A DNA stretch of 36,644 nt from Nitratifractor sp. (lineage in GTDB: Bacteria; Campylobacterota; Campylobacteria; Campylobacterales; Sulfurovaceae): positions 1 through 36,644 of the forward strand of contig WFQO01000141.1 in assembly GCA_015486995.1 (NCBI GenBank). Reading direction: 5' to 3'. Positions 11,261 through 31,890 of this stretch are shown here, piece by piece. Positions within the stretch are counted from its first letter, which is position 1, and each line of letters begins with the position of its first letter. Both the position numbers and the translations under genes were made by a program. A model generated the notes under the pieces. That model searched no databases. It was not told where the DNA came from and saw only the letters and a list, made by a program, of their open reading frames with translations.

Positions 11261-11300
11261 TTCGCCAGCGAGTTTCAATGGAGTACTCTGAAGAACCTCC

Positions 11301-11466
11301 GGTTTCACTCGATAGCTCTGGCAGTCGCGAACAGGAGAAGCGAACAAGGCAATATCAACTGCTTGATGTTGCCCGCTTCGAACGGCGCTTCGTCTATGCC
11401 GAAGGCATCGAAGACGCCCACACCTTTCACGGGTTGAGCGCTCCTTTGTCGCCATCGAGTGAAACC
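11301..11466 (+). repeat. Palindromic element copy 1 (166 bp, with nested hairpins)
   Basis: Terminal arms GGTTTCACTCGAT and ATCGAGTGAAACC are perfect 13-bp inverted repeats. Inside them are the two conserved boxes: GGCAGTCGCGAAC (11320-11332) and GCGCTCCTTTGTCGC (11438-11452). Between the boxes are two more hairpins. 11337-11379 has stem GAAGCG/CGCTTC and an inner GGCAATATCAA/TTGATGTTGCC stem. 11384-11418 has GGCG...ATGCC paired with GGCAT...CGCC. The fold is cloverleaf-like. An extra outer match, CTCTGAA/TTCAGAG, lies at 11286 and 11481. Confidence 0.75.
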
Positions 11467-11512
11467 TCTCTTGGGCATTTTTCAGAGGGTTCAATGAGAA
11501 AAAGGAGAAAAA

Positions 11513-11866: not shown

Positions 11867-11897
11867 CCGCTTTCATTGAAGAACTTCGAAGAGAACT

Positions 11898-11977
11898 TTT
11901 ATTCGGCGGCGACAAAGGAGCGCTTGCCCCCTGGAGGTTCCAACGGAATCAGCGACTGCCTAAGCTGCCGGATGAAA
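11898..11977 (-). repeat. Palindromic element copy 3 (80 bp, inverted orientation)
   Basis: Read on the minus strand it has box GGCAGTCGC (11952-11960) and box GCGCTCCTTTGTCGC (11909-11923), as in copies 1 and 2. The arms TTTATTCGGCGGC (11898-11910) and GCTGCCGGATGAAA (11964-11977) are imperfect inverted repeats. The middle is short, with a small TTCC/GGAA hairpin. Confidence 0.65.
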
Positions 11978-12064
11978 TCGGCGAAATGACAAAAAACCCG
12001 TTTATATCGTTGTACTTAAAGACACAGAGCTTCGTTCCAAACCCGCCCCCCAGCGATTTTTCGC

Positions 12065-31564: not shown

Positions 31565-31608
31565 TGGGTACCTTGTCGGTAGGTTCTCATTACTCCATAG
31601 CGTATCGG

Positions 31609-31704
31609 GGTATGTTCTTCGTTCAATACTCCGGCAGTCGCGAACGCCTGCGGCGCCCCTTCGGGGTTGGGCGCTCCTTTGTCGCATTGAACGAAGAACA
31701 TACC
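31609..31704 (+). repeat. Palindromic element copy 2 (96 bp)
   Basis: Perfect 19-bp terminal inverted repeats: GGTATGTTCTTCGTTCAAT (31609-31627) and ATTGAACGAAGAACATACC (31686-31704). Internal boxes GGCAGTCGCGAAC (31633-31645) and GCGCTCCTTTGTCGC (31671-31685) match copy 1. The centre is a short GC-rich hairpin (GCGCCC/GGGCGC around CTTCGGGGTT). It lies 45 bp upstream of the helicase ATG, in the opposite orientation to that gene. Confidence 0.8.
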
Positions 31705-31890
31705 GGTTGAAGAACAACCTTGCAGTGACTATGGTTTTCGGTCGGAACCTGGAAAAATTTTGGGTGGATTTATCAAATATCAAGAGGCAAAATGCGGAAT
31801 CAATAGTCGTAAATCATCGCAGACCGATGAGCGATTGGAAAGAGTATAGCGGAATCTTTGATGAAAAGATAGGGGCACGTATGGCGCCTT

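Follow-up and report, generated by a model that had tools for sequence, protein, structure and literature searches.

The palindromic sequences that lie in three intergenic positions of a Nitratifractor contig were found to belong to a mobile DNA family which is present in many copies in vent and sediment Campylobacterota and is apparently undescribed. The element jumps, as was demonstrated by empty sites in relatives, and the family is probably one of short, non-coding, fold-back mobile DNA, MITE-like in kind, with a core that is conserved in its structure.

A multicopy element family in Sulfurovaceae

The window, by which we mean the whole 36,644-nucleotide stretch of DNA analysed here, had been given an initial annotation describing three copies of an element with inner boxes and self-complementary outer arms, and both boxes and arms were found in the places that it gave in all three copies, with the sequences as described. 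The annotation had also named two outcomes that would speak against a new family, a total of only three copies in the genome or a match to a known IS end, MITE or Rfam family, and as far as tested neither was found. In the draft genome (1.83 Mb) a strict two-box pattern gave 9 matches (0 with the pattern reversed) and a looser pattern gave 18 (0 in the reversed control), so that this genome alone holds at least 18 copies. Rfam gave no match at the gathering threshold or at E<=1, which agrees with the family having been previously unrecognised, and nothing was found on the element family itself in the open-access literature. With the looser pattern 14 of 60 relatives were positive, with up to 27 copies per genome in related Sulfurovaceae. 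When 85,462 species genomes were scanned, the matches listed came almost only from Sulfurovum, Nitratifractor and unclassified 'Campylobacteraceae' metagenome bins, the family members being scattered through deep-sea Sulfurovum/Nitratifractor-type bacteria. Pattern matches in Clostridiales (L052) and Planctomycetaceae (L130) had no arms and were rejected as chance, and a search for a plasmid or phage origin gave no match. About 150 distinct copies were assembled for comparison.

The three copies in the window

Copy 1 is a complete long-form element of 212 bp (11281-11492, forward strand) and reaches beyond the arms, at 11301-11466, that had been taken as its limits. It ends in terminal repeats of 15 bp, GAGTRCTCTGAAAAA, of which the left, GAGTACTCTGAAGAA, lies at 11281-11295 on the forward strand (tens of copies end alike) and the right, the reverse complement of GAACCCTCTGAAAAA, lies at 11478-11492 on the reverse strand, in line with the terminal-repeat set. 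Inside these, all on the forward strand, are the left outer arm GGTTTCACTCGAT (11301-11313), which is the commonest arm of the family, and the right outer arm ATCGAGTGAAACC (11454-11466), which pairs with it at 13 of 13 positions. Box 1, GGCAGTCGC (11320-11328, forward strand), supplies the left internal-loop bases and the left side of the middle stem, and box 2, GCGCTCCTTTGTCGC (11438-11452, forward strand), the right side of the middle stem and the right internal loop. Between the boxes the inner branched region of the long form (11329-11437, forward strand) is predicted by folding to be built of long hairpins, and is about 81 nt longer than its counterpart in the short form. No promoter or terminator was found near copy 1.

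Copy 2 is a short-form core (31609-31704, forward strand; 88.5 bits) with arms of another sequence, 31609-31627 pairing with 31686-31704 at 19 of 19 positions. The copy is missing from the same place in genomes G005 and G009, and the stretch inserted, approximately 31589-31735 on the forward strand, measures 147 bp here against 14 bp in those two genomes; its ends are too eroded for ends and duplication to be resolved. Copy 3 (11893-11980, reverse strand) is an old, decayed short-form core with 10 of 13 arm pairs standard and three non-standard, no recognisable terminal repeats were found at it, and its site in G005 holds a remnant without box 2. The hairpins of the window fold at about 5 sd below shuffled sequence.

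Movable copies have terminal inverted repeats and duplicate a 4-bp target

Empty sites, which it had been suggested to seek in sister strains, were present in relatives. In the sister genome G005 both flanks of copy 1 are joined by a single AATG, whereas the window reads AATG-element-AATG, so that exactly 11281-11492 plus one AATG is absent from G005. The left duplication lies at 11277-11280 (supported by the G005 empty site and element L170) and the right at 11493-11496 (supported by the same empty site and the duplication set), and at these edges BLAST alignments to many genomes repeatedly break off, near 11276-11278 and near 11495. A base-perfect case was given by the empty site L144, reading ...GAATGAGGAATTAGGAG..., against L141, reading ...GAATGAGGAATT-(131 bp)-AATTAGGAG... 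(AATT), and a further case by L111 against L001 (AACT).

The movable form measures 131 bp (short) or 212 bp (long) and has imperfect 15-bp terminal repeats, GAGTGCTCTGAAAAA/GAACCCTCTGAAAAA, at its ends. Both ends were recognisable in 49 elements, 33 of which are exactly 131 bp long, and a perfect 4-bp target duplication was present in 27 of the 49, compared with a mean of 7.8 over 2000 trials with permuted partners, the highest of which gave 15. The duplicated target is AT-rich (mostly AATT and AATA, also AATG and similar). Elements were found in both orientations in all gene contexts, and the amplified copies had no strong orientation bias, for which reason a cis-regulatory leader was rejected. 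Terminal inverted repeats, a duplication of fixed length and presence or absence with precise empty sites, by which a MITE is recognised, were all observed, and the transposon reading is solid for those copies that have terminal repeats; the low-copy Sulfurovum versions lack them. Such inverted repeats with 4-bp duplications are characteristic of transposases of the DDE type, which work on double-stranded ends, and the earlier proposal of a folded single strand as the form that moves or is processed gained no support. The element may have been moved in trans by a DDE-type transposase, perhaps one that has since been lost.

Searches for DDE_Tnp_1 in a set of own-genus genomes and for Y1_Tnp in the own genome and in copy-rich G002, G005 and G006 found none; G000, G002 and G006 are incomplete drafts and G005 is 99% complete. 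No autonomous partner with the same ends was found in the own genome, in the fetched loci or, by end pattern, in 16 genomes, and paired ends 600-4000 bp apart in the fetched loci were only chance or MITE-to-MITE pairs, with no autonomous copy among them. With sites of the known interior set aside, the end pattern gave 17 matches in the 16 genomes. All of these have other interiors, and nearly all belong to a second type of MITE, measuring 130-132 bp in the cases in which its two ends were located, that carries inside it a pair of CGTC-REP hairpins like those of PMC3733652. This combination of the same ends and length with a different interior points to a single transposition system that can carry different interiors and is constrained to a length near 131 bp.

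Elements of the second MITE type, at 128-132 bp (L217, L228, L238, L186, L315, L317, L320, L322 and L328), were observed to have the same terminal repeats and 4-bp duplications at nearly the same length, with two CGTC-REP hairpins replacing the core. RAYT-like Y1 transposase genes were also seen (L151, L152, L153, L156 and L168), lying between inverted GGGGTCAG repeats that are unrelated to the element. A RAYT gene flanked by inverted repeats is the TIRtron arrangement (PMC3733652).

Arms change in step, with few wobble pairs

Arms paired at 12 or more of 13 Watson-Crick positions in 139 of 154 copies, and 33 distinct, perfectly self-complementary arm sequences were counted. The covariation that the initial annotation had perceived in the arms was genuine, with 94.9% of cells paired over 45 diverse copies compared to 67.6% after shuffling, although the copies are related and shuffle figures are thus not probabilities. 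Slid controls, which keep the relatedness, gave 32-42% of cells paired when displaced by one to three columns, and in these same copies both sides had changed in 171 cells, where 40 were expected. The arms do differ among the three window copies; their description as copy-specific is true of lineages only, most copies of the family having the GGTTTCACTCGAT/ATCGAGTGAAACC arm pair in common. As an arm stays constant across independent insertions, arms are inherited with the element and not renewed at each insertion, and the making of arms from target sequence at each insertion was rejected.

The 77 distinct arm pairs comprised 943 Watson-Crick pairs, 12 G.T and 26 A.C, and the wider alignment likewise gave 12 G.T against 23 A.C and 4 against 10. 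Read on the core-sense strand over all stems, A.C mismatches are about twice as frequent as G.T. Helices selected as sense-strand RNA should show G.U well above A.C. That the changes are nearly all Watson-Crick, with no G.T excess, favours a DNA hairpin over a sense-strand RNA. Complementarity is therefore a property that would, with moderate confidence, be kept at the DNA level: a strand may have to extrude the hairpin for recognition, template switching may copy arm onto arm, or both may occur, and the unpaired boxes would be conserved as recognition sequence. Template switching at quasipalindromes is described as a documented mutational process in bacteria and yeast (e.g. PMC7202029, PMC3820800).

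The core is more widely spread than the ends

An outer stem of at least 13 bp, a middle stem and a pair of small tip hairpins make up the core, together with an asymmetric internal loop in which ACTCTGGC faces TTTGTCGC; its stems vary by lineage yet remain complementary. The inner boxes are exact in the three window copies, as had been noted, but the invariance claimed for them holds less well, as GGCAGTCGC and GCGCTCCTTTGTCGC look invariant partly because copies were sought by exact boxes, and remote relatives alter them. In distant members found with covariance models the inner part of both boxes is the middle stem, 7-9 bp long, varying and perfectly paired (alternatives being GCGGTGCA/TGCACCGC, GCCTTGCT/AGCAAGGC and ACAATGCA/TGCATTGT); constant in most Sulfurovaceae copies are the loop, ACTCYGGC opposite TTGTCGC, and the two-hairpin tip. 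Weaker remote matches in other families within the order (G102, G072, G067, G130, G096, G070 and G039) lie in large fold-back palindromes and have the same tip together with a related loop, in which GCTAA faces CTTRACG; they are likely to be homologous. The inner core surpassed the terminal repeats in both conservation and spread, and in view of this wider spread and of its persistence the idea that the core is more than the interior of a MITE is well motivated.

Six fold-back copies of about 200 bp were observed in G102 (L277-L282), with outermost repeats of 15-20 bp whose two sides vary together (CTGATGTTACGC, CTGACCTTACGC, CTAATATTCCA); two of the six have terminal direct repeats of 7-8 bp (TTAGTTT, TTAATTAA). 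Long forms (core of about 132 nt) and short forms (core of about 52 nt) were seen at the same locus in related genomes (L019 versus L013; L028 versus L148 and L066), which implies that an element gains or loses this inner extension while staying at its site. Between L028 and L148, which differ in form in this way, two compensated arm pairs had changed.

Sulfurovum copies recur at conserved loci

Copies in Sulfurovum are few and without terminal repeats, and they turn up again and again at the same sites, which from recognised sequence motifs we take to be hsp20-hsp20, TPR-BatD-like, comEA-like-gltX and the position after infB. They lie mostly just after the upstream stop codon and in the sense orientation. 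Such persistence without terminal repeats at conserved loci suggests a cellular role. Across 30 genomes the comEA-gltX locus held four intact cores, one decayed core and one remnant, with all carriers in a group of seven that has the same comEA tail; in the remaining genomes there was a plain hairpin, or no element of this kind. The flanks of this locus show 92% and 81% identity between G341 and G559 and the element shows 54%, each version pairing with itself. This fits vertical inheritance with stems turning over in place, repeated insertion at a hotspot being a possible alternative. The gap before gltX (L329-L358) was observed to hold a different stem-loop in nearly every Sulfurovum genome, running from stop codon to promoter, and just upstream of gltX the sequence TTAACCACATTTT..TACAATCACATAATTTATT is strongly conserved.

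Discussion

Bacterial MITEs are 70-300 bp, non-coding and intergenic, with terminal inverted repeats, target duplication and a strong hairpin (PMC3733652). The element resembles Correia/NEMIS, ERIC, RUP, YPAL and Nezha in its size, intergenic site, ends, duplication and folding, and differs from these named MITEs in having GAGTGCTCTGAAAAA 15-bp ends and a 4-bp AT-rich duplication, in a core that is more conserved and widespread than its ends, in its long and short forms, and in stems replaced in step on both arms, in 33 perfect versions. CGTC- and GTAG-tagged REPs have both been reported in a Sulfurovum genome (PMC3733652). These are palindromic and intergenic like the element, with complementary stem changes between families, and pairs of CGTC-REPs are carried, in these very genomes, by MITEs that share the element's ends; however, REPs are single hairpins of 20-40 bp with a tetranucleotide tag, whereas the core is a branched structure of 60-140 nt with two conserved unpaired boxes and no tag. 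Structured RNAs of the Rfam kind also have covarying stems around conserved loops, but in the element wobble pairs are scarce and no match at E<=1 was obtained. Integron attC sites may be a further likeness: they too are imperfect palindromes, maintained for their structure and not their sequence, and they have small conserved boxes and a variable tip. By eye, however, the element has no RYYYAAC/GTTRRRY box pair at its ends, which read GTTYY.../...RRAAC, opposite to attC, and it forms no array.

Several points weigh against the MITE-like reading that we prefer: neither a transposase nor an autonomous copy was found in the genomes and loci searched; the core outspreads and outconserves the ends, which is unexpected for a plain MITE; Sulfurovum copies without terminal repeats persist at conserved loci; and the reading does not account for the excess of A.C over G.T. 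Tentatively, the core may be a functional, structured nucleic-acid module ancestral in Campylobacterales, whose stems were rewritten in place by DNA template copying while its unpaired boxes and branch point were conserved under selection, and which one genus made into a transposon.

Clearly less probable than the MITE-like reading is a structured regulatory or processed RNA, transcribed in operons, with the loops CUCUGGC / UUUGUCGC bound by a protein or the ribosome and controlling stability or translation, the core having been spread later by a MITE in the Nitratifractor-like genus. An RNA of this kind would account for the strong covariation, for the branched fold with its conserved unpaired boxes, for the position of Sulfurovum copies between co-directional genes near a stop codon (hsp20-hsp20, TPR-BatD, comEA-gltX, infB) and for the long persistence at comEA-gltX with stem turnover, but it is opposed by the near absence of sense-strand G.U tolerance, with A.C exceeding G.T, by the orientations of the amplified copies, and by the lack of an Rfam relative and of a promoter or terminator near copy 1.

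The core could also be a unit of its own that enters the loops of hairpins already present, such as terminators, the arms then being the stem of the target. The comEA-gltX element does sit at a position taken up by a plain hairpin in most other Sulfurovum genomes, and in the sister MITE, whose ends are the same, CGTC-REP hairpins replace the core; yet copies with terminal repeats bring the same arm to tens of sites, the empty sites have no pre-existing hairpin, and arms at different loci have a common outer GTT/AAC end, unlike random targets, all of which makes this improbable. Movement as single-stranded DNA by a Y1 tyrosine transposase, as for RAYT/REP elements, is more improbable still: the element is palindromic and intergenic and some related genomes encode Y1/RAYT-like proteins, but Y1_Tnp is absent from the own genome, G002, G005 and G006, the RAYT-like genes adjoin the unrelated GGGGTCAG repeats with no core model match there, and terminal repeats with target duplication are not a feature of REPs. 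Chance or an artefact of the draft metagenome assembly (184 contigs) is a negligible explanation, as the same elements occur in single-contig genomes (G011, G034 and G227) and reversed patterns gave zero matches.

The family offers a clear test of a general problem: covariation is commonly accepted as proving RNA structure, but in this case its source is mobile palindromic DNA in which wobble pairs are almost lacking. Should the reading of the core as a template-rewritten module be true, for which the case is as yet a tentative one, the family would be a natural instance of DNA-level covariation that mimics RNA structure. If template switching drives the turnover of stems, RNA-discovery pipelines would need a wobble-pair control; if selection drives it, the element would have a function at conserved loci such as comEA-gltX.
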